Positions 18,449 through 35,699 of a stretch of 41,077 nucleotides of DNA are shown piece after piece. Within the stretch, counting starts at the first letter, position 1. Every line of letters begins with the position of its first letter. The position numbers and the translations under genes were made by a program. The stretch is from Kordiimonadales bacterium (lineage in GTDB: Bacteria; Pseudomonadota; Alphaproteobacteria; Sphingomonadales; Kordiimonadaceae): NCBI GenBank assembly GCA_015485385.1, contig WFTS01000103.1:1-41077 (forward strand). The letters are read 5' to 3'. The notes beneath the pieces were generated by a model. The model was given only the letters and a program-made list of their open reading frames with translations, did no database searches and was not told the DNA's origin.

Positions 18449-18901
18449 TTAAAGCGAAGCGGCCAAGTCAAAACCAGCTATTCTGGCTTTCATAGATAAA
18501 TCCAGAATGTAAGACTGAATACCATGCCTCATAGACTGCGTGTGCAGATAATTCTCGATACGGCCTTTAACTGTATCAAAAGGCTGTGGAATATCTGATG
18601 TTTCACTGACGGTAAACCGGTGAATGTTTTGATCATAATACCGGCGGCAGGCATCTTCGGTAGCTGTGGGGGCTGCCACCTTTTGTTCCATCAACGCCAA
18701 TATTGCCACCTCGATGGCTGCATCGTCTGCATTGTCATCAAGCAAGTCCAGTTCAACGGCCTCTTGCCGCAAAAGCTCTCGAATTAACAAGGCTTTTGCT
18801 GCTTCATCCCGCGCCTCTTCCCTAGAAGGAGCCGCATGATGCTGCATTTCACTAAAGACAGCATCATCTGTAATTTCTACTTTATTGACATAAAGTGGCA
18901 C
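18449..18901 (-). CDS. NifM/PpiC-like chaperone lacking the parvulin domain
   Basis: A 150-residue protein at the end of narK1K2GHJI, where other nar operons (for example in Pseudomonas aeruginosa) carry a PpiC-type peptidyl-prolyl isomerase of about 250-280 residues. The N-terminal helical part (VNKVEITDDAVFSEMQ, AAKALLIRELLRQEA, EEDACRRYY-type segment ATEDACRRYYDQNIHRF) matches the chaperone region of that family. The C-terminal helix PFDTVKGRIENYLHTQS and ARIAGFDL also match. Between them, where about 100 residues of parvulin fold should be, only SETSDIPQ is found. Isomerase activity is therefore not expected. A helper role in folding or maturation of nitrate reductase remains possible. 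It starts three bases after the narI stop codon. The assignment rests on my memory of the family and needs an alignment. Confidence 0.75.
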   Translation of the reverse strand: MPLYVNKVEITDDAVFSEMQHHAAPSREEARDEAAKALLIRELLRQEAVELDLLDDNADDAAIEVAILALMEQKVAAPTATEDACRRYYDQNIHRFTVSETSDIPQPFDTVKGRIENYLHTQSMRHGIQSYILDLSMKARIAGFDLAASL

Positions 18902-18904
18902 AGT

Positions 18905-19588
18905 TTACCCCCTTTTCCGAACGACCTGATATCCAGACCGGAAGATATATTTGATCGGTGCAGATAGCATATGTACCAACCGAGTAAAGGGGAACAGGAC
19001 AAAAATTGTCAGGCCCAAAACGATATGTGCCTTAAAAATCAGCGGTTCGTGAAGCACAAAATCAGCGGCGCCGCCTCGGAAAGTCACAATATGTTGCGCC
19101 CAATTCGCAAGCGCTATCATACTGCTACCATCAAGGTGCTGTGCCGAAGCCGGGATAGTTGCCAACCCTAAAATCAACTGCACATAAAGAACCAACAAAA
19201 TCATAATGTCCGCAGGGTTACTTGTGGCGCGAATACGCGGATCACTTAGTCGGCGCACCAGCAAAACTGTCAGGCCCACGAAACAAAGCGTGCCGAATAT
19301 TCCGCCGGCAATCATCGCCATCAATTGTTTTGCGCCAGCTGTCATCACAAGATGATAAACCGGTTCAGGTGTTAACAAGCCAATCAAATGCCCGAAAAAC
19401 AGTAAGATAATACCAACGTGGAACAAATTGCTGCCAATCCGCATCCCGCGTGAGCGCAATAACTGACTAGAACCAGCCTTCCAGCTGTAGGGGTCTTGAT
19501 CGTAACGCATGATCGTCCCCATCACCATAATGGCAATAGCCAAGTACGGATAAATACCAAAGAAGAAATCATTTAAATAAGTGTCCAT
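18905..19588 (-). CDS. narI: Respiratory nitrate reductase gamma subunit (cytochrome b)
   Basis: A 227-residue inner-membrane di-haem b subunit that takes electrons from quinol and passes them to NarH. Five hydrophobic helices are visible. Histidines in the expected helices (LFHVGIILLFFGHLIGLL, DFVLHEPLIFKAHIVLGL) are the likely haem ligands. The N-terminal DFFFGIYPYLAI and the segment RYDQDPYSWKAGSSQLL are characteristic. It starts nine bases after the narJ stop, in the standard GHJI order. Length matches E. coli NarI (225). No defects are seen. Confidence 0.96.
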   Translation of the reverse strand: MDTYLNDFFFGIYPYLAIAIMVMGTIMRYDQDPYSWKAGSSQLLRSRGMRIGSNLFHVGIILLFFGHLIGLLTPEPVYHLVMTAGAKQLMAMIAGGIFGTLCFVGLTVLLVRRLSDPRIRATSNPADIMILLVLYVQLILGLATIPASAQHLDGSSMIALANWAQHIVTFRGGAADFVLHEPLIFKAHIVLGLTIFVLFPFTRLVHMLSAPIKYIFRSGYQVVRKRG

Positions 19589-19597
19589 CTTGCCCTC

Positions 19598-20299
19598 CTA
19601 GTGGCTGGCAGCAGGCGCATCGCCTGCCTTAGGTGAATTAATCGGGTGGCGGGTTGCTGACGGACATATATTGCAATCCGCTTGGCCGGTACCATCAAAG
19701 GCCGGTGCATCTTCCCAATCTTTATCAAGCGCCTCATTGCTGGTATCTTCTGCTTCGGCTTCAGATACAGCTTGTTCTATAAACTTTTCATCCACCTTCA
19801 CTGTGGTCAGAGCTTCTAAAGCTCTGAATATCTGATGATACCCTTGCTTCTTCGCTTTCAATTTTGCGCCAACGCCAGCGATAATATGAATGGTTTCACC
19901 CAAAAGCTCCTGAGCCTCTGAAAAATCTATCTGAGACAAAAATTCCAAGAACAGCGGCAGATAATCCGGCAATTCATTCGCGGAAAGAGTAATACCGTGA
20001 CTGATATAATGGTCAGATAGATCTACCATTGCTTGGCCACGATCACGGCTTTCCCCGTGAATATGCTCGAACAAATAAAGTGAATGTGCGCGCCCTCTAT
20101 CAAAGAGCGCGACATAATCTTCCTGCACACGCATCAAATTACGACGCGCCAAATCATCCATGAATTGGAACAGTGGCCGCTGAAGTTTGGCTGGCACTGC
20201 AGCTTCCATTTCTATGGCAGCCTTCAGTTCGCCCATATGCTGTTGTAATTCCTTCGTCGGATACGCAAGCAACAATCCTAATATTTTAAAGCTATTCAT
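19598..20299 (-). CDS. narJ: Nitrate reductase assembly chaperone (delta subunit)
   Basis: A 233-residue TorD/DmsD-type helical chaperone. It binds the NarG N-terminus and oversees insertion of the molybdenum cofactor before NarGH docks on NarI. Family segments seen: LLAYPTKELQQH near the start, YVALFDRGRAHSLYLFEHIHGESRDRGQAM, and DHYISHGITLSANELPDYLPLFLEFLSQ. The C-terminal tail after residue 180 is acidic and low in complexity. Its start ATG overlaps the narH stop by one base, so translation is probably coupled. It is cytoplasmic and not part of the final complex. Confidence 0.95.
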   Translation of the reverse strand: MNSFKILGLLLAYPTKELQQHMGELKAAIEMEAAVPAKLQRPLFQFMDDLARRNLMRVQEDYVALFDRGRAHSLYLFEHIHGESRDRGQAMVDLSDHYISHGITLSANELPDYLPLFLEFLSQIDFSEAQELLGETIHIIAGVGAKLKAKKQGYHQIFRALEALTTVKVDEKFIEQAVSEAEAEDTSNEALDKDWEDAPAFDGTGQADCNICPSATRHPINSPKAGDAPAASH

Positions 20300-21864
20300 T
20301 AGCCTTTCCTCACTTTTCCGCTCATGGTGTTGCTATGTGTCGCACCGCCGAACAAACTGCCAGATTTTCCGCCTGACCGTGCACTACCACCGCTGCAACC
20401 ATTGCCAAAGCTGAAGCCGCACGCTGCTTTGCTCTCGAATGCAATTTCATTATCAAACGGAGTTTTGCCAGCATATTCCCTGTGGTTGGTAGGAATGACA
20501 AACCGGTCATCATAATCCGCCAGCGCCATGATTTTATACATATCATCAGCAGTTGCTGCATCCAGACCAACTTGGTCTAAGACAGACGCGTCTGCTCCGC
20601 CGGTGATATGCTTTCCGCGCATGTAACTACGCATTGCCAGCATACGCTCAAGCGCATGCTCAACGGGTGCTTCCTTGCCCCCTGTTAGCATGTTGGCCAG
20701 ATATTTCACTGGAATGCGCAGGTCTTTCACATTTGGGATAACACCATCACTGGAAATGGCACCTTTCTCATGTGCGCTTTGGATCGGTGACAATGGCGGA
20801 ATATACCAAACCATTGGCAAAGTCCGGTATTCAGGATGCAGAGGAAAGGCCACTTTCCAATCCATCGCCATTTTGTAAACAGGTGATGCTTTTGCGGCCT
20901 CCAACCAACTATGCGGCACACCATCTTTCTTGGCCTGTGCGATTACATCCGGATCATGTGGATCAAGAAAAATTTCACACTGTTTTTCATACAGATCTTC
21001 CACATCTTCGGTAGACGCAATCTCTTCAATTCGGTCTGCATCATAAAGCATGACACCCAAATAACGGATGCGGCCTACGCATGTTTCAGAACAAACTGTA
21101 GGTTCACCATTTTCGATGCGTGGGAAACAGAATGTACATTTCTCAGATTTACCTGATTGCCAATTAAAATAAATTTTCTTGTATGGGCAACCAGAGACAC
21201 ACATACGCCAACCACGGCATTTATCTTGATCAATCAAGACAATACCATCTTCTTCACGCTTATAGATCGCGCCAGAAGGACATGCTGCAGCGCAGGTTGG
21301 GTTCAAGCAGTGTTCGCAAAGGCGCGGCAAATACATCATGAATGTATTTTCAAATTCACCGTACATTTCTTTCTGAACATCTTTGAAATTATAATCCTCT
21401 GAGCGTTTTTCAAACTCACCACCGAGGATTTCTTCCCAGTTTGGTCCCCAAACTGGTTTCTCCATTTTCTCTCCGGTAATCACCGAATGCGCACGCGCGG
21501 TCGGCGGAGTGTTTACCTCTGGGCTATTTTGCAAATGCCCATAGTCGAAAGTGAATGGTTCATAATAATCGTCAATCTCTGGCAAATCCGGGTTCGCGAA
21601 AATCTTAGAGAGCAAACGGAACTTTCCACCCATCTTTGGTTGAATTTTCCCGTTCGATTTACGTTCCCAGCCACCGTTCCACTGGTCTTGGTTTTCCCAA
21701 TTCTTTGGGTAGCCAATACCTGGTTTGGTTTCCACATTATTAAACCAACTATATTCAACACCTTCGCGGCTGGTCCAAACATTCTTACATGTTACAGAGC
21801 AGGTATGGCAGCCGATGCATTTGTCCAAGTTTAGGACCATGCCTATTTGTGCACGTATTTTCAT
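20299..21864 (-). CDS. narH: Respiratory nitrate reductase beta subunit (Fe-S)
   Basis: A 521-residue electron-transfer subunit with four Fe-S clusters, linking NarI haems to NarG. The cysteine groups are clear: CIGCHTCSVTCKN near the N-terminus, CEHCLNPTCAAACPSGA, CRGWRMCVSGCPYKK (the Trp in place of Cys marks the [3Fe-4S] site), and CTFCFPRIENGEPTVCSETC. The start is set at ATG 21864, where GGAGAG stands before it and the protein begins MKIRAQIGMVLNL like other NarH. An in-frame extension to 21963 would run back into narG and is rejected. The C-terminal 45 residues are Gly/Ser-rich. It follows narG by ten bases and overlaps narJ by one. Confidence 0.97.
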   Translation of the reverse strand: MKIRAQIGMVLNLDKCIGCHTCSVTCKNVWTSREGVEYSWFNNVETKPGIGYPKNWENQDQWNGGWERKSNGKIQPKMGGKFRLLSKIFANPDLPEIDDYYEPFTFDYGHLQNSPEVNTPPTARAHSVITGEKMEKPVWGPNWEEILGGEFEKRSEDYNFKDVQKEMYGEFENTFMMYLPRLCEHCLNPTCAAACPSGAIYKREEDGIVLIDQDKCRGWRMCVSGCPYKKIYFNWQSGKSEKCTFCFPRIENGEPTVCSETCVGRIRYLGVMLYDADRIEEIASTEDVEDLYEKQCEIFLDPHDPDVIAQAKKDGVPHSWLEAAKASPVYKMAMDWKVAFPLHPEYRTLPMVWYIPPLSPIQSAHEKGAISSDGVIPNVKDLRIPVKYLANMLTGGKEAPVEHALERMLAMRSYMRGKHITGGADASVLDQVGLDAATADDMYKIMALADYDDRFVIPTNHREYAGKTPFDNEIAFESKAACGFSFGNGCSGGSARSGGKSGSLFGGATHSNTMSGKVRKG

Positions 21865-21874
21865 GGTCGCTCTC

Positions 21875-24800
21875 CTATTCTGCTGCCTGTGGGGCAATGT
21901 TTTTGTCCGCGAGCTCTTCGCCCCATTCAACATCACTTGCTTTTCTAACCACAACACACTCATCGCGGTTGGAACCTACTGTTCCGTAATAATTGAAACC
22001 ATATGAAAGCTGAGCATAGCCACCAATCATATGAGTGGGCTTCACCACGGCGCGAGTAACACTGTTATGAATACCGCCACGACCACCGGTCGTTTCAGCT
22101 TTCGGTGTATTGATGGTTTTTTCCTGCGCGTGATACATCATGGTCATACCTTCCGGTACGCGCTGTGACACCACCGCCCGTGCCATGATGGCGCCGTTGG
22201 TATTATACAGCTCAATCCAATCGTTATCTTCAACATCCATCTTCTTAGCGTCCACTTCAGAGAGCCAAACAACAGGTCCCCCACGGTTAAGTGTCAACAT
22301 CAGCAAGTTATCGCTATAAGTTGAGTGGATGCCCCACTTTTGGTGGGGTGTAATCCAGTTCAACACGACTTGCTTGCGCCCCTTACCGTGTTTATCAATC
22401 ACCGGTGCGATGGTTTTGGTGTTCACTGGAGGTTTATAGACACAGAACCCCTCCCCAAAATCTCGCATCCATTCATGATCTTGATAAAATTGCTGACGGC
22501 CAGTTAGCGTGCGCCAAGGTATCAATTCGTGCACATTGGTGTAACACGCATTATAGCTTACATGCTCATCCTCAAGTCCAGACCACGTTGGCGAAGAAAT
22601 GATCTTTCTAGGTTGTTGCTTGATATCGTGAAAACGGATTTTTTCATCATGTTTTGGGGTCGCTAGGTGCTTATGCTCACGGCCTGTAACATTCTCTAAC
22701 GCACCCCAAGCTTTCACAGCAACATTCCCGTTTGTTTCAGGAGCAAGTGACAAGATAACTTCTGCCGCATCCACGTCTGTAACAATATTTGGCATGCCTT
22801 GGTTGGCGCCTTCTTCAGCATGAACACCGTTGAGCTTACCCAGCAATTCAAGCTCATCATCCGTGTTCCAGCCAATTCCCTTGCCGCCATTACCAAGCTT
22901 GCCCAATAGCGGGCCTAAGGCTGTAAAGCGCTTGTAGGTATTGGGGTAGTCGCGTTCAACCTCGATTAAAGCTGGCATTGTTTTGCCCGGAATCGGATCA
23001 CATTCGCCTTTTTTCCAGTCAGTAACACCAAGCGGCTGGGCCATTTCCCCGGGTGTATCATGCAGAATAGGGAGGCTGACCACATCGGTTTCAACACCCA
23101 AGTGTCCAACACAAACCTCTGAGAATTTCTCGGCAATTCCTTTATAAATATCCCAGTCACTGCGGCTTTCCCATGCAGGATCAACGGCGCGCGTTAAGGG
23201 ATGAATAAAGGGGTGCATGTCCGAAGTATTCAGGTCATTTTTCTCATACCATGTGGCCGAAGGTAAAACGATGTCTGAATAGAGGCAGGTGGTAGACATG
23301 CGGAAATCAAGCGTAACGACCAGATCAAGTTTACCTTCAGGTGCTTCATCGTGCCATTTGACTTCGCTTGGTTTCTGACCGCCAATTTCGCCTAAGTCTT
23401 TACCTAGCAGGCCGTTCTGTGTGCCCAGCAAATGCTTGAGCATATATTCGTGGCCCTTGCCGGATGATCCGAGAATATTAGAGCGCCAAATGAACATATT
23501 GCGTGGGAAATTCTTAGGATTGTCCGGGTCTTCACACGCAAAGCCTAGGTTGCCTGATTTCAGTTCACCGACGATATGCTCAGAAGATGATTTCCCCGCC
23601 GCCTTTGCATCTCGCGCAACCTTTAGTGGGTTTTCGCTGAGTTGTGGTGCAGACGGCAACCAGCCCATACGTTCAGAGCGCACATTACAGTCGATCAGTG
23701 AATAATTTTCCCATTTACCCTTATCCGCAAGTGGTGACAGTATTTCATCAACTTCCAACTTCTCATAGCGCCACTGGTTTGAGTGGTTATAGAAAAAGCT
23801 AGTTGAATTCATATGCCGGGGCGGACGGTTCCAATCCAGTCCAAACGCCAGAGGCTGCCAGCCCGTTTGGGGACGCAGTTTTTCTTGCCCCACATAGTGC
23901 GCCCAGCCACCGCCAGATTTTCCGACACAGCCGCACATGATCAACAAGTTCATAATGCCACGATAAATCATGTCCATATGATACCAGTGGTTCACAGCAG
24001 CGCCCAAAATCACCATGGATTTACCGCGTGTCTGATCGGCATTTGTTGCAAATTCACGCGCAACCTGAATCACTTTAGCGCGGTCAACACCCGTGATTTT
24101 CTCCTGCCATGCCGGCGTGTAAGGGACATCATCATCATATGATGTCGCTACGTTTCCACCGCCGAGGCCGCGGTCAACACCATAATTGGCGACCATAAGA
24201 TCGAAAACAGTTGCTACTTTCACTGTCCCGTCTTTGGTTTCAACATTTTTAAGCGGTACATTTCTCTCAAGCACGCTCTCGTGCTCTGTATGCTGGAAAA
24301 TGCCTTCGTCATGTTCAAGGTTCCCAAAATAAGGGAAAGCAACCGCAGCCACTTCATTTTCAGTCTCTACGAGAGAAACTTTTGGCCAAATATTGCTGTC
24401 ATCAGAAACATTCTTAAGTTCTAGATTCCACTTTTTGCTTTTATCCCAGCGTGAACCTATCGTGCCGTTGGGTACGCAGATATTGCCACTGTTACCGTCA
24501 AGAATTGCGGCCTTCCATTCAGCATTCTCAGTCTCACCGAGACCATCCTCAAAATCAGAAGCCCTAAGCAAACGTCCCGGGATCAATTTTCCGTCCCGTT
24601 CTTCCATCATCACGAGGAATGGCATGTCGGTATACATGCGGCAATAATCGTCAAAATACTCTGACTTATTTTCCACATGGAATTCTTTTAAGACCACATG
24701 ACCCATTGCCATAGCAAGCGCACTATCAGTTCCTTGACGCGGGTTAAGCCAGATATCGGTCAGCTTCGCCACTTCTGAATAATCAGGCGTCACTGACACT

Positions 24801-25633
24801 GTTTTGGTGCCCTTATAGCGAACTTCAGTGAAGAAATGCGCGTCAGGTGTCCGAGTTTGCGGCACATTCGAACCCCAAGCCATAATGTAACCTGAATTGT
24901 ACCAATCTGCACTCTCTGGCACATCTGTTTGCTCACCCCATGTTTGCGGTGAACTTGGAGGTAAATCACAGTACCAGTCATAGAAAGACATGCACGTCCC
25001 GCCGATCAGAGACAAATAGCGACTACCCGCAGCGTAGGAGACCATAGACATCGCGGGGATCGGAGAGAAACCAATGATACGGTCAGGACCATATTCTTTC
25101 GCGGTATAGACATTGGATGCAGCAATCAGCTCATTGACTTCATCCCAGTCACCGCGAACAAATCCACCAAGGCCGCGTACCCGCTTATATTCACGCGACT
25201 TTTCAGGGTCGGAAACAATGCTTTGCCACGCATCGACCGGATCAGGAAACTCGGCCTTTGCTTTGCGCCACAGCTCCAATAACCGCCCGCGTACCATCGG
25301 ATATTTCAATCTTGCTGCGCTATATAAATACCAGCTATAGCTGGCACCGCGCGCACAACCACGGGGCTCGTGATTTGGCAAATCAGGGCGTGTTTTTGGG
25401 TAATCCGTTTGCTGGGTTTCCCATGTTACAAGCCCATTTTTAACATAAATTTTCCAAGAGCATGAGCCAGTACAGTTTACCCCGTGTGTGGAGCGAACAA
25501 CTTTATCATGCGCCCAACGGCCACGATAAGCTTTTTCCCAGTCACGGCTTTCATCAGTGGTAATGCCGTGACCATCTGAGAAGGTCTCCGGCGTTTTGGT
25601 AAAATAGGTGAGCCTATCTATAAAGTTGCTCAT
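21875..25633 (-). CDS. narG: Respiratory nitrate reductase alpha subunit (molybdoenzyme)
   Basis: A 1252-residue catalytic subunit that reduces nitrate to nitrite at a bis-MGD molybdenum centre on the cytoplasmic side. The N-terminal FS0 cluster ligands are His50, Cys54, Cys58 and Cys93 (HGVNCTGSC and RGCARG), in the same arrangement as E. coli NarG. The segment PQTWGEQTDVPESADWYNSG, which surrounds the Mo-Asp ligand in this family, is intact. The N-terminal STHGVNCTGSCSW lacks the cleavable twin-arginine signal of periplasmic Nap enzymes, as expected. Length fits (E. coli 1247). A 26-base hairpin with a 9-bp stem lies between narK2 and this gene. The start ATG has GGAG upstream (on the minus strand AGGAGATAATC before ATG). 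Confidence 0.98.
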   Translation of the reverse strand: MSNFIDRLTYFTKTPETFSDGHGITTDESRDWEKAYRGRWAHDKVVRSTHGVNCTGSCSWKIYVKNGLVTWETQQTDYPKTRPDLPNHEPRGCARGASYSWYLYSAARLKYPMVRGRLLELWRKAKAEFPDPVDAWQSIVSDPEKSREYKRVRGLGGFVRGDWDEVNELIAASNVYTAKEYGPDRIIGFSPIPAMSMVSYAAGSRYLSLIGGTCMSFYDWYCDLPPSSPQTWGEQTDVPESADWYNSGYIMAWGSNVPQTRTPDAHFFTEVRYKGTKTVSVTPDYSEVAKLTDIWLNPRQGTDSALAMAMGHVVLKEFHVENKSEYFDDYCRMYTDMPFLVMMEERDGKLIPGRLLRASDFEDGLGETENAEWKAAILDGNSGNICVPNGTIGSRWDKSKKWNLELKNVSDDSNIWPKVSLVETENEVAAVAFPYFGNLEHDEGIFQHTEHESVLERNVPLKNVETKDGTVKVATVFDLMVANYGVDRGLGGGNVATSYDDDVPYTPAWQEKITGVDRAKVIQVAREFATNADQTRGKSMVILGAAVNHWYHMDMIYRGIMNLLIMCGCVGKSGGGWAHYVGQEKLRPQTGWQPLAFGLDWNRPPRHMNSTSFFYNHSNQWRYEKLEVDEILSPLADKGKWENYSLIDCNVRSERMGWLPSAPQLSENPLKVARDAKAAGKSSSEHIVGELKSGNLGFACEDPDNPKNFPRNMFIWRSNILGSSGKGHEYMLKHLLGTQNGLLGKDLGEIGGQKPSEVKWHDEAPEGKLDLVVTLDFRMSTTCLYSDIVLPSATWYEKNDLNTSDMHPFIHPLTRAVDPAWESRSDWDIYKGIAEKFSEVCVGHLGVETDVVSLPILHDTPGEMAQPLGVTDWKKGECDPIPGKTMPALIEVERDYPNTYKRFTALGPLLGKLGNGGKGIGWNTDDELELLGKLNGVHAEEGANQGMPNIVTDVDAAEVILSLAPETNGNVAVKAWGALENVTGREHKHLATPKHDEKIRFHDIKQQPRKIISSPTWSGLEDEHVSYNACYTNVHELIPWRTLTGRQQFYQDHEWMRDFGEGFCVYKPPVNTKTIAPVIDKHGKGRKQVVLNWITPHQKWGIHSTYSDNLLMLTLNRGGPVVWLSEVDAKKMDVEDNDWIELYNTNGAIMARAVVSQRVPEGMTMMYHAQEKTINTPKAETTGGRGGIHNSVTRAVVKPTHMIGGYAQLSYGFNYYGTVGSNRDECVVVRKASDVEWGEELADKNIAPQAAE

Positions 25634-25702: not shown

Positions 25703-27340
25703 TTATGGGTTTTTGACGTAAGCGTCTTTTCGCAAATAAAACCACCAGTTTATGAGTATGCAAACACCGTAGAATATGGCGAAACCATAAAGGGCATATT
25801 CAGGTGTAGTTGCCTTGATCTGTTCGCCGAATATTTTCGGTATTAAGAACGCACCGTAAGCTGCGATTGCTGATGTCCAGCCAAGCACTGGGCCTGTTTG
25901 TTCTTTATTGAACACCACAGCGATTGTCCGAAATGTAGAACCGTTTCCAATGCCCGTTGCCGCAAACAAAATGATAAAGAGGATCAAGAAGGGCCAGAAA
26001 TATTCTTCTGGTGTCGCAGAAGCGTATGCCGCTTTCATAAAGTAAGCTACACCCAGCGCGCTGGCTACCATAACCACACTTACAATTTGTGTAACCTTGG
26101 CACCGCCCATTTTGTCGGCCCAAGAGCCTCCAATTGGGCGTATAAGCGCCCCAATGAAAGGCCCCATCCATGCATACATCAAAGCACTAGGGCCATTCGG
26201 ATTGGCCGTTGCATGTGTCATCACTCCGTCAACCATAATATGCTGGAAGCCAAAAATCACTTTGATTGCGAGCGCTGTTGTCGCGGCAAAGCCAATGAAG
26301 GAACCAAACGTCATAGTGTAGATGATGGTCATGGCCCAAGTATGCTTGTTATCGAAAATCTGGAACTGGCGTTTTAGGTTTGATTGGATCTTACCCGGGA
26401 TAAGCTTCATTAACCCCAGTGTCAGTACGATCACAATCGGCAATACGATAAACTTGCTTAATTCAAATCCAGCACCGCCGCCTGAGGCAGGCAACATCAA
26501 CCACAAGCCAAACGCCGCAGCAATAAGACCAATAAACAACATACCCAAGATTTTCACAAAAGCGCTAATCGCAGAACCTGCATCGGGAGAAACATGTTCA
26601 TCACGGATTGTGTTCATACCGAACCATGTCGCTATTGCTAGCGGGACCAAAAGCAAAAGCCATACCCAACCCGCATTAAAGATATAGGTATCCGTTCCGG
26701 CTGGAATTTTACCGATCAACGTGCCTGAAGTGTTCTGCAACACCAAAGGGTCACCGCCGAATAAGGCGAAGGTCATCACAAGTGGCACAACAATTTGCAT
26801 TGTTGTCACACCAAAATTACCAAGGCCCGCATTCATCCCCAAGGCATATCCTTGAATTTTTTTAGGGTAGAAAAAACTGATATTTGACATTGAGGAGGCA
26901 AAATTACCGCCACCAATACCAGACAAAAGCGCCATCAATTGAAATTGCCACAGAGGTGTATTTGGATCCTGCAACAAGAAACCTGTGCCAGCAGCGGGCA
27001 AGATCAAAAGCGTCGTTGTCAAAAACAGAGTATAACGCCCACCCGCAATGCGGATGAAGAATGTGCTAGGAATACGTAACGTCGCGCCTGAAAGCCCCGC
27101 AATTGCAGCAAGCGTGAATAATTGGCTCTGTGCGAATGGAAAACCAAGATTGAGCATTTGAACAGTGATGATGCCCCAATACAGCCATACCGCAAACCCG
27201 CACAAAAGTGCCGGTATTGAAATCCAAAGGTTCCGGGTGGCAATTTTCTTGCCTCCATTTTCCCACTGGTTTTCATCATCTGGATCCCAGCCATATAAAT
27301 CACGGCCCCGTTCTTCCAATGTTTTAACTTCTTCAGTCAT
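25703..27340 (-). CDS. narK2: Nitrate/nitrite antiporter, NarK2 type (E. coli NarK/NarU-like)
   Basis: A 545-residue major-facilitator protein with about 12 membrane helices. It has the long N-terminal extension DLYGWDPDDENQWENGGKK typical of the NarK2/NarU branch, and nitrate-signature glycine-rich segments (ALLSGIGGGNFASSMSNISFFYPKKIQGYALGMNAGLGNFGV, and GNGSTFRTIAVVF near the end). Arg residues in helices (TLRIPSTFF and GSTFRT) are the likely substrate contacts of the family. It is expected to exchange nitrate for nitrite. It is second in the operon and flanked by hairpins on both sides. The ribosome site AGGAG is a few bases before the ATG. Assignment to the NarK2 branch is by sequence style and operon order. 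Confidence 0.92.
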   Translation of the reverse strand: MTEEVKTLEERGRDLYGWDPDDENQWENGGKKIATRNLWISIPALLCGFAVWLYWGIITVQMLNLGFPFAQSQLFTLAAIAGLSGATLRIPSTFFIRIAGGRYTLFLTTTLLILPAAGTGFLLQDPNTPLWQFQLMALLSGIGGGNFASSMSNISFFYPKKIQGYALGMNAGLGNFGVTTMQIVVPLVMTFALFGGDPLVLQNTSGTLIGKIPAGTDTYIFNAGWVWLLLLVPLAIATWFGMNTIRDEHVSPDAGSAISAFVKILGMLFIGLIAAAFGLWLMLPASGGGAGFELSKFIVLPIVIVLTLGLMKLIPGKIQSNLKRQFQIFDNKHTWAMTIIYTMTFGSFIGFAATTALAIKVIFGFQHIMVDGVMTHATANPNGPSALMYAWMGPFIGALIRPIGGSWADKMGGAKVTQIVSVVMVASALGVAYFMKAAYASATPEEYFWPFLILFIILFAATGIGNGSTFRTIAVVFNKEQTGPVLGWTSAIAAYGAFLIPKIFGEQIKATTPEYALYGFAIFYGVCILINWWFYLRKDAYVKNP

Positions 27341-27421: not shown

Positions 27422-28732
27422 TTAAGCATCCATGCCCTCTAGCTCAGGCAGGTTGCGTGGCCCACGCAGGGCTGGGTTTTGTTCTTTTTCCAGCTTGATA
27501 ACGGTGAAATGCATCCAAGTTAGCGCAATGCCAATCAGAACAGTCAGGAGCATAAAGCAACTGGTCCAAACCCCGATCAGGTCGTTCATAACACCAAATA
27601 CAATTGGCAGAACAAACCCGCCGAGACCGCCAATTAAGCCCACAGTTCCACCTACAGAACCCACATGATCCGGGTAGTAAACTGGAATATGCTTATAAAC
27701 TGCAGCCTTACCAAGTGACATAAAGAAGCCCAAAACAATGGTCAGGAATACAAACAGCTCAAGTGGGATTGTAACATTGAACTCAATCGGGCCTTCGATG
27801 CCCGCCACCCGGTAATCTGTCGCGGGATATGACATAATGAATGTGCAAGTCACAGACGCAATGAAGGTCCAATACATCACTCGGCGCGCCCCGTATTTAT
27901 CGGAAAGGAACCCGCCCAGTGCCCGAAAAATAGAACCTGGCAAAGCATACATAGCCGCCAACAAGCCTGCGGTGGTTAATTCTAACCCGTAAGCTCCAAC
28001 ATAATAGCGCGGTAGCCACAGTGCCAACGCCACATAAGCGCCAAATACAAAGAAATAATATAAAGAGAACCGCCATACTTGTAAGTTCTTCATAGGCTCA
28101 AGTTGTTTTAGAAAACTTGGGTGTTCTTTGCCTTCAGCTTTGTGCGCAGCATGAACAGGATCATCCTTCGCGAAAAAGAAGAAAAGAACAGCTGTGATAA
28201 ATAAAATCACAGAATAAACCTGTGCAACACCTTGCCACTGCCCGTTCATCGCAACCAAAAGCAAGGGTGCTGCAAAGTTGGTTATTGCCGCTCCCACATT
28301 GCCCATGCCAAAAATTCCGAGAGCAGTCCCCTGCTGGTTCTTTGGGTACCACCGGGAAACATACGCAACTCCAACGGCAAAGCTACCGCCAGCAAGGCCT
28401 ACCCCTAAGGCTGCAACAAGAAACATCTCGTAAGTAGAGACCAGCGTAAGCAAATAAGCTGCAACCGAAGTCGCGAGCATTTGAATAGTGAAAACGATCC
28501 GCCCACCAAATTGATCTGTCCATATTCCCAAGAATAATCGGCTTAATGATCCTGTAAGTATAGGCGTCGCCACAAGTATGCCAAACTGAGTATCGCTTAG
28601 CCCAAGCTGTGCCTTGATCTTAATTCCGATAATCGAGAAGATCGTCCAAACGGCAAAACATACAGTAAACGAAAGTGTACTAGATGTAAGTGCGCGCCGT
28701 TTTTCTTCTGATTTTACAATGGTATCCGTCAC
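27422..28732 (-). CDS. narK1: Nitrate/nitrite transporter, NarK1 type
   Basis: A 436-residue major-facilitator protein with 12 predicted helices. The nitrate-signature motifs are present: GVGLAGGSFAVGVAYVSRWYP and GTALGIFGMGNVGAAIT in the first half, and GLIGGLGGFVLPIVFG in the second. RLFLGIWTDQFGGR is the MFS loop motif. The shorter N-terminus and motif style suit the NarK1 branch, seen as a nitrate/proton symporter. In Paracoccus NarK1 and NarK2 are fused in one protein; here they are separate genes, as in Pseudomonas. It is the first gene of the nar operon, with a perfect Fnr-type site centred 78 bp from its start. The divergent neighbour is the NIT-Crp regulator. Confidence 0.92.
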   Translation of the reverse strand: MTDTIVKSEEKRRALTSSTLSFTVCFAVWTIFSIIGIKIKAQLGLSDTQFGILVATPILTGSLSRLFLGIWTDQFGGRIVFTIQMLATSVAAYLLTLVSTYEMFLVAALGVGLAGGSFAVGVAYVSRWYPKNQQGTALGIFGMGNVGAAITNFAAPLLLVAMNGQWQGVAQVYSVILFITAVLFFFFAKDDPVHAAHKAEGKEHPSFLKQLEPMKNLQVWRFSLYYFFVFGAYVALALWLPRYYVGAYGLELTTAGLLAAMYALPGSIFRALGGFLSDKYGARRVMYWTFIASVTCTFIMSYPATDYRVAGIEGPIEFNVTIPLELFVFLTIVLGFFMSLGKAAVYKHIPVYYPDHVGSVGGTVGLIGGLGGFVLPIVFGVMNDLIGVWTSCFMLLTVLIGIALTWMHFTVIKLEKEQNPALRGPRNLPELEGMDA

Positions 28733-28803
28733 GAATGCCTCCTAACTTTTGGGTTTCCCCTTTTTCATCAAGGCTACTTTGCAACAGAGAAAGTAAGATG
28801 CAT

Positions 28804-28817
28804 TTGATCCACATCAA
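28804..28817. promoter_or_regulatory. Fnr/Dnr-type site between narK1 and the NIT-Crp regulator
   Basis: TTGAT-CCAC-ATCAA is a perfect palindrome. It is centred 78 bp from the narK1 start (minus). It lies 136 bp from the preferred start of the divergent regulator at 28947. It probably activates the whole nar operon and may autoregulate the regulator gene. Confidence 0.88.
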
Positions 28818-28946
28818 ACGGGCGTCCGGCGCGCGATATTGTCGCACTTGATAGAAATCAACTATGAAAACCAAACGTTTTTAGTAGGAATTCATAGGCA
28901 AAAAGTGCGATACTCTTTTCAGGCCAATAGTTGGGGAATTCAAACA

Positions 28947-30569
28947 TTGAACACACCATCTGGAAATTCAGCTTTGCTGAAAGAATTACTGCATAAACTT
29001 GGTAGTGTTGTGCATGAATTTCAGCGGGAACGCGGCAGTGCCGGGCTTTTTCTTGATAGTCTCGGTAAAATATTCACCAAACGATTCGATGCGCAAATTG
29101 CTGCATCCGTCGAAAGCGTTGAGCAATTGCGCGCTTACTGTGACCGTAGTGATGTAAAAGCAGCCCTGCCCTCAAGCTTTAGCGCCAGACTAAAGTATCT
29201 ATTTGTTAAATATGACGAGACGGTAGAGCTTCGAGATAAAATTCGTCTGCTTTCAATTCGATACACATCTGCCCTTAATAACTATACATTCGGCCTAACC
29301 GTACCAACAATTGACGCTATGATTGAGCTTGCTCAAAGAGCACCAGAAAATAACTCTGCGCTTGTCTCTGGCTACGCTAATTTCCTGCAGTGGAAAGAAC
29401 GTATTGGCATGGAGCGTGCGCTCGGCACCCGGGGCTTTTACACCTTCGCTTTTCGAAATCAGGAATTCTGTGATAGATTCGTTGCATTGATTGCCGAACA
29501 AAGAAACTATTTCAATACTTTTAAAGCACTTGCCTCACCAGCACAGATTGCACTGGTAAATGAACACCTAAAAGACAAAGGATTGTTAGGATTTCAAGAG
29601 TTCAACAAACTGCTTGAGGATGGTGCGCCTACAGCTGAAATTGAACGCTTCACAGGCGAGGACTGGTATGACCTTTGCACCCGTATCATCGACAATTTAA
29701 GAAATACGGAAAAACAGATGGTCAATGGCTTAGAGGGAGGCAAACTGGCCGAAAAACTGGAAAGAAAAGAAGCATTAGACCAAATAAAGGCCTCCAGCGC
29801 ACCATTGCAAATGCTGAAGTACCGGAAATTTTTAAATGCATTACCCACTTTCGCCTCTCTTGAAGACGAAGAGTTGGACGAACTGCTAAGCTTTGCTCAG
29901 ATACGTGAATATTCTAAGGATAAATTACTTTTTCTACGAGATGAACCCGCATCCAGAATGTATATTATTCTGCAAGGCTGGGTGAAAGTTTATAATGGCC
30001 TCGAAACAGGTGAAGAAGCGGTTCTACAGATGCTCGGCGCAGGTGAAACACTGTTGGAATCAGCGGTTTTTCTAAATGTTCCAACACCTGTTAGTGCGCA
30101 AGTTGTTGAAGATGCTCTCCTTTTATCAATTCCGGCACCAGTTATTCGACAACGTATCCAATCAAGCCCACAGCTTGCAATTAGCATGCTCAACAATGTA
30201 TCCCTTCGGTCACAGCGCCTTGTTCAGCAACTTGAATTGTCACGGCTTAAAAGCGCCCACGAGCGCGTAGGATGGTTTTTGTTGCGATTAAAACTAAACC
30301 AAAAGTCGGATGGCGGGCTTATCTACCTGCCATATGAAAAGTCTATCATAGCCTCCTATCTGGATATGCGCCCGGAGACATTTTCTCGTACATTGAAAAA
30401 ATTTAAAGCCGATGGTTTCCAGATTTCCAGCGACACAGTGCAAATACCTGAAGGTAAAGCGCTGTGCAATTTTTGTGACGTTGACCTCGCGAGCCAATGC
30501 GGAATCGCTGGTAGTGAAAAATGCCCTCATCCAGAATTTAGTGATGAATTATACCGAGAAGAGGTATGA
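28947..30569 (+). CDS. NIT-domain/Crp-Fnr fusion transcription regulator (putative nitrate-responsive)
   Basis: A 540-residue one-component regulator. Residues about 8-260 match the helical NIT (nitrate- and nitrite-sensing) domain: EFQRERGSAGLFLDSLG near residue 25 is the hallmark first motif, RYTSALNNYTFGLTVPTID near 105 a second, and LQWKERIGMERALGTRGF near 150 the arginine-rich third. A cyclic-nucleotide-type barrel follows (about 294-414), then a winged helix with RPETFSRTLKKF (the E-x-x-S-R pattern for TTGAT half sites). The tail holds CNFCDVDLASQC and a fourth Cys (C-x2-C-x8-C-x7-C). There is no N-terminal Fe-S motif. The start is uncertain: the open frame reaches a TTG at 28839, but that lies where the promoter should be, so the TTG at 28947 with GGGGA upstream is preferred. 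It stands where narXL sits in Pseudomonas. Nitrate sensing is inferred from the domain. Confidence 0.87.
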   Translation: MNTPSGNSALLKELLHKLGSVVHEFQRERGSAGLFLDSLGKIFTKRFDAQIAASVESVEQLRAYCDRSDVKAALPSSFSARLKYLFVKYDETVELRDKIRLLSIRYTSALNNYTFGLTVPTIDAMIELAQRAPENNSALVSGYANFLQWKERIGMERALGTRGFYTFAFRNQEFCDRFVALIAEQRNYFNTFKALASPAQIALVNEHLKDKGLLGFQEFNKLLEDGAPTAEIERFTGEDWYDLCTRIIDNLRNTEKQMVNGLEGGKLAEKLERKEALDQIKASSAPLQMLKYRKFLNALPTFASLEDEELDELLSFAQIREYSKDKLLFLRDEPASRMYIILQGWVKVYNGLETGEEAVLQMLGAGETLLESAVFLNVPTPVSAQVVEDALLLSIPAPVIRQRIQSSPQLAISMLNNVSLRSQRLVQQLELSRLKSAHERVGWFLLRLKLNQKSDGGLIYLPYEKSIIASYLDMRPETFSRTLKKFKADGFQISSDTVQIPEGKALCNFCDVDLASQCGIAGSEKCPHPEFSDELYREEV

Positions 30570-30582
30570 AGTTTTCTCAAAC

Positions 30583-30596
30583 TTGACCTCTGTCAA
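30583..30596. promoter_or_regulatory. Fnr/Dnr-type site upstream of moaA
   Basis: TTGAC-CTCT-GTCAA is a perfect palindrome 14 bp after the regulator gene ends. It is centred about 170 bp before the moaA start, farther than at the other targets. Transcription from near 30631 would give a leader of roughly 130 bases, which holds several hairpins. Confidence 0.85.
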
Positions 30597-30664
30597 TCAT
30601 TCTAAGCGCCTACTCCGCTAGAACCGTCCTCATAAGTGCTCAACTCCGAAGCCCTTGCACCTAC

Positions 30665-30757
30665 GTTCAACCAAACATGGTGTTTGGGCCGCAGTAAATT
30701 TGCTGCCGGGTCAATACGGGAAACCGTTTGGCCTCTCGTATTTGGAAAGGAGATAGC
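30665..30757 (+). promoter_or_regulatory. Structured 5' leader of moaA, possible RNA switch
   Basis: Several stems can be drawn: CCAAAC (30671-30676) with GTTTGG (30682-30687); GCAGTA (30691-30696) with TGCTGC (30701-30706); and ACGG-GAAA-CCGT (30716-30727), a GNRA tetraloop hairpin. A second GTTTGG at 30726-30731 could take CCAAAC instead, giving two exclusive folds. TCTC at 30734-30737 can pair with GAGA at 30750-30753 within the moaA ribosome site. Leaders of moaA genes can hold molybdenum-cofactor RNA motifs, but I cannot match this one to that consensus with confidence. Confidence 0.45.
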
Positions 30758-30759
30758 GT

Positions 30760-31737
30760 GTGCACCTAACAGATGGATTTGACCGGACTTTTAAATATTT
30801 AAGGTTGTCGGTAACGGATGTATGCAATTTCAAATGCCAATACTGCCTCCCTGACGGTTATAAGGCATGCGCAGGTCCTAGACCGCTGAGCTTAGACGAG
30901 CTTCGCCGTGTGGCCACTGCATTTTCAGAGCTTGGGCTAAGTAAAATCCGATTGACAGGCGGTGAGCCCACTGTGCGAAAAGATTTTACAGAAATTGCTC
31001 AGACAATCGCCGCGTTGCCAAATGTAGAGACCCTTGCCTTAACCACGAATGGATACCGTCTTGCAGAGCGAGCCCTTGAGTGGAAATCTTCAGGTATAAA
31101 TGCAATAAATATCAGCTTAGATAGTCTTTCTCGGGGAAATTTTCACCACATAACGGGCCATGATCGACGCGATGAAGTAATGCGAGGGATCGATGCTGCT
31201 TTTGATGCGGGCTTTGAGGTCATCAAAATCAATGCTGTCTATCTGAAAGGTATCAATGACCATGAGATAGATGCTTACCTTGATCTGGCCAAAGACCGCG
31301 CCTTATCAATACGGTTCATTGAGCTTATGGAGACTGGCGACCATGCCAGTTTTTTCCAAAATCACTATATTTCTGCAGAGGTTTTAAAAACCAAACTTGC
31401 CAACGAGGGCTGGGCTCCTGTTTTAAAGACATCATCTGCTGGCCCAGCAAATGATTTTATACATCCTGATTATCAAGGTCGTTTCGGGCTAATCGCCCCC
31501 TACTCTAAAGATTTTTGTAAAAGCTGTAATCGTCTACGGTTCTCGTCTCTGGGAAAGTTACATTTATGTCTCTTTGGAGAATTCGGTGTGCCAATGCGCC
31601 AACTCCTGCAACATGATGATCAAATCCCTGAGCTTAAAGAGCGTATTCAAAAAGCGGTACACGGTAAAACTGCAAATCATCTGCTGAAGCAAGGCAAAAC
31701 CGGTATCACGTCCAACCTTTCATTGATCGGCGGCTAA
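30760..31737 (+). CDS. moaA: GTP 3',8-cyclase (molybdenum cofactor synthesis)
   Basis: A 325-residue radical-SAM enzyme that starts molybdopterin synthesis by rearranging GTP to 3',8-cyclo-dihydro-GTP. The N-terminal cluster CNFKCQYC lies near residue 22. The SAM-binding LTGGEPTVR follows, and the C-terminal [4Fe-4S] motif CKSCNRLRFSSLGKLHLC is near residue 250. The protein ends in the conserved double glycine (LSLIGG). The start is GTG at 30760, with AGGAG eight bases upstream. It leads a plus-strand group moaA-moeA-PLP enzyme and is controlled from the Fnr-type site at 30583. A moaA copy also lies at the end of the nar cluster in Pseudomonas. It supplies cofactor for NarG. Confidence 0.96.
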   Translation: MHLTDGFDRTFKYLRLSVTDVCNFKCQYCLPDGYKACAGPRPLSLDELRRVATAFSELGLSKIRLTGGEPTVRKDFTEIAQTIAALPNVETLALTTNGYRLAERALEWKSSGINAINISLDSLSRGNFHHITGHDRRDEVMRGIDAAFDAGFEVIKINAVYLKGINDHEIDAYLDLAKDRALSIRFIELMETGDHASFFQNHYISAEVLKTKLANEGWAPVLKTSSAGPANDFIHPDYQGRFGLIAPYSKDFCKSCNRLRFSSLGKLHLCLFGEFGVPMRQLLQHDDQIPELKERIQKAVHGKTANHLLKQGKTGITSNLSLIGG

Positions 31738-31810
31738 CGGACTTACCTCATGGTATCAACCTGATGCTGACGCATGGAATATACAGTTTGTTATTTAAAA
31801 GGATAAAATA

Positions 31811-33079
31811 ATGTTCGAAAAAACTAACGAGCAATCAAGCTGCCTAACAATGGCACACTATGAAGATAGTTTATCCTGTATTCTTAACCAAGCCAGATGC
31901 ACTGAGGTAATTTCCAGCTCAATCCTTGAGGCGATCGGGTGTGTGCTGGCCGAAGATTTAATTGCCCCTATTTCTGTGCCAAGCTTTGATAACTCAGCAA
32001 TGGATGGCTTCGCTTTTTCCTCGCGCAGCACTGACGGCGCCTCGTCAACACGTCCTGTTTCAATGCCTATTGTGGGAGCATGTATAGCCGGAGACACGGC
32101 TGGCCAAGCCCATCTCCAGCCTGGCTTTGCGGCTAAAATCATGACGGGCGCCCCCATGCCCGAGGGGGCTGACACTATACTGCCCGTTGAATATGCCAGT
32201 TGGCAACACGACAAGCTTAGCTTTTATGAGCCATATCCTTCAGGCAAACATGTGCGGTATGTTGGAGAAGATGTCACAAGCGGTACTGTGGTTTTAAACA
32301 AAGGCACCCGAATTAGTGGTCAACATGTGCCCCTTTTATGCGCATTAGGATTATCACAGATAAAAATACAGCAAGCTCCGCGTGTCTCATGGATTACCAC
32401 AGGCCAAGAAATTTCTGATAAATTCGATGAGCCTTTAGTGCCGGGTCATATTTATAATGCCACTGGTCTATACGGCACCGTAGCAGCCACCGATATGGGC
32501 TTTGACCTTGAGGAAAAAATTACGGTTCGGGATACACCCCAAGATTTTGCGGCTGCACTAGATACTGCGCTAGATAAAAAAGTTGATATCATTATCTCCA
32601 CAGGAGGTGTTTCTGCTGGAGAATATGATTTTGTACGCCCTGTTCTTGAGGATGCCGGTGGACGCATCCTACTTCACAAAGCTCGGATCAAGCCGGGTAA
32701 GCCTGTGCTGTTTGCAGTGCTACCTAACGGCACCTATTTTTTTGGGCTTCCGGGCAACCCAATTTCAACAGCAATAGCTTTACGGGTCTTTGTATATCCA
32801 TTCGTGCGCAAAATTCTTGGGCAAGGGGCAGAGCCTCACCGCACGGCGAAACTGCTAAATGCGCAAAAATCTTCTGGTGGTCGGACTGTTTTCTTGATGG
32901 GGACTCTTGATATTAGCGATAAGGGTGAGCTTATAGCTAAACCTCGACCAAAGCAGCAGTCTTTCCAAACCTCCCCATTTGCCAAAAGCAGCATTTGGAT
33001 TGTCACACCAGAAGGAACGGAAACGTTGGAAGCAGGTTCCACCGTGCAGTGGCTCCCCATAGAAATCAGTGGTCTTTAG
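31811..33079 (+). CDS. moeA: Molybdopterin molybdenumtransferase
   Basis: A 422-residue enzyme that inserts molybdate into adenylylated molybdopterin. Seen: the N-terminal DNSAMDGFAF segment around residue 60, the domain with GAPMPEGADTILPVE, the MPT-binding STGGVSAGEYDFVRPVLEDAGG around 260, and KPGKPVLFAVLPNGTYFFGLPGNPISTA. The C-terminal beta domain is complete. Length is close to E. coli MoeA (411). It is 73 bases after moaA, with AAGGAT before the ATG. Together with moaA it suggests a local boost in cofactor supply when nitrate reductase is made. Other moa/mob genes are not in the window. Confidence 0.95.
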   Translation: MFEKTNEQSSCLTMAHYEDSLSCILNQARCTEVISSSILEAIGCVLAEDLIAPISVPSFDNSAMDGFAFSSRSTDGASSTRPVSMPIVGACIAGDTAGQAHLQPGFAAKIMTGAPMPEGADTILPVEYASWQHDKLSFYEPYPSGKHVRYVGEDVTSGTVVLNKGTRISGQHVPLLCALGLSQIKIQQAPRVSWITTGQEISDKFDEPLVPGHIYNATGLYGTVAATDMGFDLEEKITVRDTPQDFAAALDTALDKKVDIIISTGGVSAGEYDFVRPVLEDAGGRILLHKARIKPGKPVLFAVLPNGTYFFGLPGNPISTAIALRVFVYPFVRKILGQGAEPHRTAKLLNAQKSSGGRTVFLMGTLDISDKGELIAKPRPKQQSFQTSPFAKSSIWIVTPEGTETLEAGSTVQWLPIEISGL

Positions 33080-34877: not shown

Positions 34878-35699
34878 TTACCGTAAGGGCATATCATTGG
34901 CTTCGGCTTCTTTCTCTATCTGTTGCAGAGCAGCAAACCTAGATTTGCTCGTGAGATAATACGCAACACCAATAAAGCCTGCACCTCCGATGATGTTTCC
35001 AATAGAAACCCAAATCAAATTATACCAGGCGCTTGTAAGAGTGACGCTGTCACTATGTGCACCAAGCAGAGATATTGTGAAGACCGTCATATTAGCAACC
35101 CCATGCTCAAAACCTGCCGCCACAAATGCAAACAAACACCAAAAAATTAAAATACATTTTGCAGTATCGCTTTTGGTTCTAGACGTCATCCATATTGCTA
35201 AGCATATAAGCCAATTACATATAATGGCGCGTGCAACTAATTCTACGATACCGCTTTGTACCTTATGAGCTGCAATTTCATGAACCAAGCTGGTGGGATC
35301 ATCAAGCCAACCCCCGCCTCCACCGAGCGCAAATAACAAACCCAGTAACATTGCACCAAATAGATTCCCACTCCAGCAAACGACCCAATCAGTGATAACC
35401 TGCACTGCGGTGAGTTTTTTATAAAGATATCCAAAGGTCATATACATTGTATGGCCAGAAAATAATTCCGCACCGGCAAAAATTATCAAGGTCAGTGTAA
35501 TCCCAAAGAAACATCCCATGATCAGGTTTCTTGACAGAGGGTCTGCTTCATTGCCGAGGGTTAAAATCAAAATGATCCCAATTCCCACATAGGCCCCAGC
35601 CATCATCGTAGAAATCGCAAACCCAAACGGATTGATTTTCAAAAACTTCACTTTATTAGCTGCAAGGGCAGCCATATTGGTCGTTGTATCTCTGTACAT
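34878..35699 (-). CDS. Formate/nitrite transporter family channel
   Basis: A 273-residue FNT-family membrane protein with six helices. Typical features: NPFGFAISTMMAGAYVGIGIILIL (first helix), AGAELFSGHTMYMTFGYLYKK (the conserved ELFSG/T loop), WVVCWSGNLFGAML, and GVANMTVFTISLLG. In this context it may export nitrite made by NarGHI or import it, as NirC does, but formate (FocA) cannot be excluded from sequence alone. A near-perfect Fnr-type site is centred 64 bp upstream (35757-35770). A single gene, convergent with the PLP enzyme. An IS3-family remnant begins just beyond its promoter. Confidence 0.92.
   Translation of the reverse strand: MYRDTTTNMAALAANKVKFLKINPFGFAISTMMAGAYVGIGIILILTLGNEADPLSRNLIMGCFFGITLTLIIFAGAELFSGHTMYMTFGYLYKKLTAVQVITDWVVCWSGNLFGAMLLGLLFALGGGGGWLDDPTSLVHEIAAHKVQSGIVELVARAIICNWLICLAIWMTSRTKSDTAKCILIFWCLFAFVAAGFEHGVANMTVFTISLLGAHSDSVTLTSAWYNLIWVSIGNIIGGAGFIGVAYYLTSKSRFAALQQIEKEAEANDMPLR

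Follow-up and report, generated by a model that had tools for sequence, protein, structure and literature searches.

The window, by which we mean the whole analysed stretch of 41,077 nucleotides from a Kordiimonadales bacterium, contains a gene whose product joins an N-terminal NIT domain to a Crp/Fnr-type module and which lies divergent from narK1 at a respiratory nitrate reductase cluster (Table 1). We refer to this fusion protein as NIT-Crp. The downstream open reading frames are presumably moaA- and moeA-like. After narI lies a gene for a 150-residue protein (18449-18901, minus strand), which recurs in several nar clusters and had no NCBIfam match above cut-off. A NirC/FocA-type channel, just below the NCBIfam cut-offs, is encoded near the cluster (34878-35699, minus strand).

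Table 1. Features of the NIT-Crp locus, in positions of the window.
Feature	Position	Strand	Basis
narGHJI, respiratory nitrate reductase	18905..25633	-	ORFs, named by sequence and gene order; synteny in relatives
narK2, NarK/NarU-like transporter	25703..27340	-	NCBIfam, below cut-offs; synteny
narK1, NarK-family nitrate/nitrite transporter, divergent neighbour	27422..28732	-	NCBIfam TIGR00886 best match, below cut-off; synteny
TTGATCCACATCAA, perfect FNR-type box, narK1-proximal	28804..28817		Pattern scan
TTGATAGAAATCAA, perfect FNR-type box, NIT-Crp-proximal	28848..28861		Pattern scan
NIT-Crp gene	28947..30569	+	ORF list and Pfam; 540 aa, TTG start
NIT domain, residues 21-262	29007..29732	+	Pfam 7.2e-30; NasR 4AKK phmmer E 2e-12
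Q26-x-x-R29, first candidate nitrate-contact arginine	29022..29033	+	Aligned with NasR QCER
G154-x-x-R157, second candidate nitrate-contact arginine	29406..29417	+	Aligned with NasR GQER
cNMP-binding (Crp-type) sensory domain, residues 320-406	29904..30164	+	Pfam 1.9e-16; model of 285-540
Crp-type winged HTH (HTH_Crp_2), residues 439-507	30261..30467	+	Pfam 1.9e-9
PETFSR, FNR-type E-x-x-S-R recognition helix	30372..30389	+	41/41 fusion sequences
C-terminal tetra-cysteine motif C507-x2-C510-x7-C518-x7-C526	30465..30524	+	Fusion alignment
moaA- and moeA-like molybdenum-cofactor genes, downstream	30760..33079	+	ORFs; often syntenic

The initial annotation had described the gene as a fusion of a NIT domain to a Crp/Fnr module, and profile searches confirmed this architecture. 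The NIT, cNMP_binding and HTH_Crp_2 matches each exceed their Pfam cut-offs, and the significant NIT match (PF08376; residues 21-262, E 7.2e-30) scores 105.6 bits, where the cut-off is 24.9, and spans profile positions 2-238 of 239. Four divergent homologues (L076, L077, L079 and L067b) were tested as well, and each has all three domains above cut-off. The motifs that had been read directly from the sequence, of the EFQRERG, KERIGMERALGTRG and E-x-x-S-R types, are present as QRERG, KERIGMERALGTRG and PETFSR, the last of which is invariant among the 41 fusion sequences. No ANTAR domain was found among Pfam matches up to E 1. A search of ATG starts only placed an ATG near this position in four close homologues, and we therefore preferred the start at 28947 to a longer TTG-initiated frame from 28839, which is probably not the gene. 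A membrane-sensor reading was ruled out by the lack of any transmembrane-like hydrophobic segment: the peak 19-residue hydropathy of NIT-Crp is 1.44, compared with 2.32 and 2.67 in the two other NIT proteins of the genome. The best reading of the sequence is a soluble, cytosolic protein.

The closest solved structures to the Crp half by sequence are a putative cNMP-binding protein of Ruegeria pomeroyi (3fx3/3h3z; phmmer 1.8e-32) and DNR (3dkw; 1.8e-22), with chains of 227-237 residues that match the Crp half alone. A model of residues 285-540 (pLDDT 73.9, six sequences) has a Crp fold, for which 3h3z/3fx3 were again the best matches and FNR of A. fischeri was a further match. Whole-protein prediction failed (pLDDT 44, five sequences), so our reading of the NIT half rests on sequence. 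FtrB activator models gave the top NCBIfam matches of the Crp half, but these fell far below the curated cut-offs (NF006901, 113 of 211 bits; NF050815, 80 of 300 bits). Arg82 of CRP, which holds the cAMP phosphate, appears to have no counterpart in the fusion proteins, which have V, L, I or Y at the equivalent position in an alignment by eye with CRP.

The NIT half contains a candidate nitrate pocket. In an alignment with NasR (4AKK), the NasR motifs QCER and GQER match Q26-R-E-R29 and G154-M-E-R157, which bears out, by sequence alignment and not by structure overlay, the earlier expectation that the nitrate-contact arginines would align with those of NasR. NasR is reported to retain the two arginines of the G-x-x-R nitrate motif, although one of the glycines is a glutamine (PMC8199190); its E175 and R176 are predicted pocket residues, and an alanine mutant of E175 loses RNA binding (PMC7496416). 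From the motifs themselves and from counting the offset in chain numbering, we infer that QCER and GQER are the motifs meant in that literature and that NasR R176 corresponds to R157. Our fusion alignment comprised 41 sequences, the window's and 40 from 39 loci, with identities down to 30%; homologue starts were set at the most upstream position within 45 codons of the match, which leaves some N-termini over-long, and L078 lacks the first part of NIT at a contig end. Among readable rows, conservation is 39/39 for Q26, 40/40 for R29, and 40/41 for both G154 and R157, with R157 lost in L076 only. These residues are among the 23 of 248 NIT columns conserved at 95% or more, compared with a column mean of 52%, and the conservation of the pocket therefore indicates that NIT is under selection. 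In contrast, E156, which aligns with E175 of NasR, is kept in only 34 of the 41 sequences, which counts against a nitrate-switch reading. We regard it as very unlikely that NIT-Crp does not sense nitrate, its NIT domain being a structural relic or a site for another anion. L076 keeps a recognisable NIT despite the loss of its second pocket motif, and we found no binding measurements on NIT domains of this subfamily, both of which would suit such a relic; against it stand the near-complete retention of both arginines and the presence of narG in all 39 genomes that encode the fusion.

The fusion recurs beside nar genes. In 32 of the 39 fetched loci narK1 is directly divergent from the fusion, as in the window, and is followed by narK2 and narG as far as each stretch reaches; moaA and moeA often lie on the side opposite narK1. 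Seven loci have no adjacent narK1. Three of these (L076, L079 and L078, a 7.6-kb contig) show no nar gene in the stretch, and in two others (L080, 8695-11566; L081, 2302-5173) a NarR-type gene, with 53% identity to the Tistrella one, intervenes and stands beside NIT-Crp at one nar locus. In the remaining two, the fusion lies by hemN and ccoN (L083), or no narK1 was found near a contig end, with a piece of narG beyond (L089). One locus of genome G060 (L067, 6058-10690) carries two fusion copies with intact pockets, which share 41% and 40% identity with the fusion of the window, one by narK1 and the other by hemN/ccoN. At another (L060, 2209-5949), narG of G073 was matched in three pieces, perhaps through sequencing errors.

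Co-occurrence also ties the fusion to nar. Among 147 sampled genomes of the window's order, 59 encode narG and 39 encode the fusion, all 39 within the narG-positive set (39/59 versus 0/88 narG-negative genomes); in the window's family the counts were 12/12 versus 0/17. The corresponding Fisher P values, 4e-21 and 2e-8, are overstated, since the sequences are related and the counts are not independent. The same domain pair, for which the initial annotation had proposed a search, thus recurs in other genomes and is linked to nar by both position and co-occurrence, and this recurrence rules out a lone chimera or assembly error. The fusion of G075 was counted among the genomes, and its locus was left out of the fetched set. 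Broader samples, all from one phylum, yielded few cases: near-full-length fusions in three of 398 genomes of the phylum at E 1e-35 (the window's own, G011 and G852), and fusions in two of 385 genomes of the class (its own and G437, where the gene is apparently cut by a contig end). A contig pattern scan, which detects close relatives only, found four loci, one in Kordiimonas marina and three in alphaproteobacterial MAGs. Of 72,556 plasmid records, 483 matched, and no match spanned more than 80% of the query. Among other proteins of the class, NIT domains matched in 31 of 289 genomes at E 1e-8, the window's own included, mostly in open frames near 700 residues and at 21-29% identity to the NIT of NIT-Crp. 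No description of a NIT-Crp protein was found in the open-access literature searched, which omits most subscription papers, and the word NIT is absent from the main text of a 2025 survey of the CRP/FNR family (PMC12531629).

The C-terminal tetra-cysteine motif had been overlooked in the initial annotation. C507 is present in 40/40 readable rows and C510, C518 and C526 in all 41 fusion sequences, whereas other cysteine columns are not fixed (column 31 is C in 28/39 and S in the window; column 531 is C in 22/41 and F in the window). The fusion alignment has no conserved cysteine column before residue 507 that could correspond to the N-terminal cluster of E. coli FNR. The tetra-cysteine motif is also carried by NIT-less Crp/Fnr proteins, including nar-linked relatives and members from other families of the class, and one NIT-less relative (L046/L132) has lost its second cysteine. 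A further NIT-less protein with the motif (L127, 9634-10362) is encoded upstream of ccoNOPGHI, which hints at an oxygen-related role for the cysteines. The motif probably binds a metal. Because Bacillus subtilis Fnr holds a [4Fe-4S] cluster through C-terminal cysteines and an aspartate (PMC3520743), an Fe-S cluster is plausible in NIT-Crp as well, where it could perhaps serve as a second sensor, of low oxygen or redox state.

This motif raises the possibility, which we consider rather unlikely, that the core signal is oxygen, redox or NO sensed through a C-terminal metal cluster, with NIT as a modulator of what is chiefly an FNR-like anaerobic nar regulator. Such a role would suit the invariance of the four cysteines among variable cysteine columns, their presence in NIT-less nar-linked relatives, the Bacillus precedent (PMC3520743), and the positions of L127 upstream of ccoNOPGHI and of two fusion genes (L067b and L083) by hemN and ccoN. 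However, the cysteine spacing is unlike that of Bacillus Fnr, the cysteine pattern would look no different with zinc or a structural disulphide, L132 lacks one of the cysteines, and the conserved pocket shows selection on NIT. We prefer a nitrate input through NIT, with the cysteines as a candidate second input.

The history of the NIT domain was examined with a quick tree of 65 rows, which left out ten near-duplicate fusion rows (L081, L085, L087, L089, L091-L093, L095, L097 and L098) and never included L133-L135. The Crp modules of the fusion and of the NIT-less tetra-cysteine proteins formed one clade (SH-aLRT 97), and five proteins from the NarR slot formed a separate one (SH-aLRT 99). Three changes of NIT gain or loss are needed on this tree, and the fusion may have arisen either by one gain with losses or by more gains. 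Two genomes, G048 and G032, have a nar operon with a NIT-less tetra-cysteine regulator (L134 and L133) and a second copy elsewhere (L076 and L082). These second copies lie between similar neighbours and group as sisters within the clade of the fusion (SH-aLRT 93). In the G048 copy NIT is still recognised by Pfam (3e-20) and the second pocket motif is gone; its identity to three nar-linked sisters is 38-41% in NIT and 81-84% in Crp, compared with 60-68% and 87-93% among nar-linked sisters (nine pairs of five). In the G032 copy, at the same place, NIT is absent. Decay and loss of NIT in copies away from nar fit the idea that NIT is kept for nar control. By contrast, pockets are intact in fusion genes by hemN/ccoN (G092 and G060) and in a fusion unlinked to nar in its stretch (G007, with narG on another contig), which counts against this idea.

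We also considered which other regulators could act in this genome, the assembly of which is 93% complete. Besides NIT-Crp it encodes two NIT proteins, which read as chemoreceptor-like and histidine-kinase-like by sequence. No PilJ-type NarX/NarQ sensor was found in the assembly by a search that detected the E. coli control. Among six cNMP-domain proteins, the E-T-F-S-R helix occurs only in NIT-Crp and in a second Crp/Fnr protein of the window (14984-15757, minus strand), whose gene lies beside hemN and the cbb3 genes. This second protein has no N-terminal cysteine motif; it has a C-terminal C-x2-C-x5-C, kept in 20/20 fetched relatives and similar to the C-x2-C-x4-C spacing in Bacillus Fnr (PMC3520743), and it is possibly the FNR of this lineage. 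Another of the six (L013, contig C136), a Crp-like protein with a non-FNR helix, has C-x2-C-x8-C close to where its open frame begins, a spacing that differs from that of the FNR cysteines. No FNR-like N-terminal cysteine motif was found in the rest, and assembly gaps could hide one.

An E-x-x-S-R helix and TTGAT half-sites form the FNR-type pairing, and narK1 and NIT-Crp share a 214-bp intergenic region with two perfect TTGATN4ATCAA boxes. This strict pattern occurs 17 times in the 2.97-Mb assembly, twice at this locus, compared with once for a reversed control pattern; the chance of two in a given 214-bp stretch is about 7e-7, for a stretch that was chosen after the fact. The form TTGAYN4RTCAA is present in 33/33 narK1/NIT-Crp regions, compared with a mean of 0.07 of 33 (maximum 1) in 100 dinucleotide shuffles, and the strict form is present in 5/33; the counted regions were bounded by tblastn matches rather than mapped starts and exclude the seven fusion loci without adjacent narK1. 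The placement of two boxes in the window, one nearer each gene, would suit a repressor or autoregulator relieved by nitrate. We consider this reading improbable, since NarR, the precedent for this slot, acts as an activator (PMC3541799; PMC8139620) and since two boxes are exceptional (L077 has three and the other 31 regions one); activation remains our preferred direction of control. The box is also found in 6/6 NarR-slot regions and in 6/7 NIT-less slot regions. We therefore rejected it as specific evidence for NIT-Crp and take it to mark FNR-type control of narK generally; since a second E-T-F-S-R helix is encoded in the genome, the box may serve the 14984-15757 protein instead. A promoter scan of 28600-30800 found no sigma-70-like sites (shuffles, 3.4).

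The slot divergent from narK is known from other alphaproteobacteria, in which NarR is credited with the nitrate input to nar and is said to replace NarXL (PMC8139620). In Paracoccus, NarR is Pden_4238 and NarK is Pden_4237, and how NarR works is described as unknown (PMC9409073). An ftrB resembling NarR and divergent from narU has been reported in Sphingopyxis granuli (PMC7713065). Of six annotated records examined, five (Paracoccus kondratievae, Thioclava, Marinovum, Tistrella and Mesorhizobium) have a Crp/Fnr gene divergent from narK and one (Roseomonas) has none in the slot, and an unannotated P. denitrificans record has a 91%-identical frame there. We take the slot proteins of Paracoccus and the others to be NarR, by position. 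Five of them are 231-237 residues long, without NIT or tetra-cysteine motif, and only 23-28% identical to the Crp module of NIT-Crp; together with their separate clade, this identity rules out NIT-Crp as an orthologue of NarR. In the window's order, 20 narG-positive genomes lack the fusion, from which 16 loci and that of G032 were fetched (G042, G111 and G140 were left out). In seven of the 16 the slot holds a NarR-like gene, in another seven narK1 is present with no Crp found there, and two have another narG type without narK1. NIT-less relatives, from 11 stretches, occupy the slot in seven (L125, L126, L129 and L132-L135) and lie elsewhere in four (L127, L128, L130 and L131). The slot thus has at least three kinds of holder, and its occupation by NIT-less tetra-cysteine relatives indicates that NIT is not essential to it. 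Strict exclusion between NarR and NIT-Crp was ruled out, as G010 and G017 have both, and the two may therefore differ in role.

Because NIT-Crp combines NIT with an FNR-type module, adjacency to nar and an invariant four-cysteine motif, it looks like a single-protein nitrate switch, and this real, recurrent, nar-linked fusion is most likely a one-component regulator of that kind. We think it likely that NIT-Crp is a nitrate-responsive, and possibly nitrite-responsive, activator of narK1-narK2-narGHJI, in which the NIT pocket drives the Crp module at TTGAY-N4-RTCAA boxes. Nitrate would bind between helices of NIT through R29 and R157, movement of NIT would be relayed through the linker, and the Crp-type module would bind the boxes as a dimer and activate the divergent operon, probably together with its own gene. 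NIT-Crp would thereby do the job of NarR in Paracoccus and of NarX-NarL in E. coli. More tentatively, NIT-Crp could be a two-input gate in which NIT reads nitrate and an Fe-S cluster of new spacing reads oxygen or redox state, and which replaces NarX-NarL (or NarR) together with FNR at the nar promoter; NIT would then be a swappable input on an older nar-linked tetra-cysteine Crp/Fnr family, selected beside nar and decayed or lost in some moved copies. A recognisable nitrate-sensor domain in the slot of NarR makes the question of nitrate input testable with one protein, one promoter and two arginine mutants. If the reading is true, a Crp/Fnr-type DNA-binding output is added to those of NIT, nitrate sensing without a two-component system could be explained in some bacteria, and a compact starting point for nitrate biosensors becomes available.

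Several known systems resemble NIT-Crp in part. FNR, and Bacillus Fnr especially, likewise combines a Crp fold and TTGAT-type boxes, with C-terminal cysteines in the Bacillus protein. However, NIT-Crp has an additional NIT domain, has no conserved N-terminal cysteine motif, and spaces its cysteines as C-x2-C-x7-C-x7-C, differently from Bacillus Fnr, around a putative cluster; the alignment with 3fx3 ends at residue 515, inside this motif. NarR of Paracoccus shares the position divergent from narK-narGHJI, the box type and the E-x-x-S-R helix, but it has neither NIT nor the four cysteines and belongs to its own clade, whereas the Crp module of NIT-Crp belongs to the tetra-cysteine clade. NasR, the NIT-ANTAR antiterminator of Klebsiella oxytoca, is likewise a one-component protein whose N-terminal NIT domain carries both arginine motifs; its output is an RNA-binding ANTAR domain and its link is to assimilatory nas, whereas NIT-Crp has a DNA-binding output and is linked to respiratory nar. 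NIT-Crp thus extends two known kinds of protein, the NIT one-component regulators and the nar-linked Crp/Fnr regulators.
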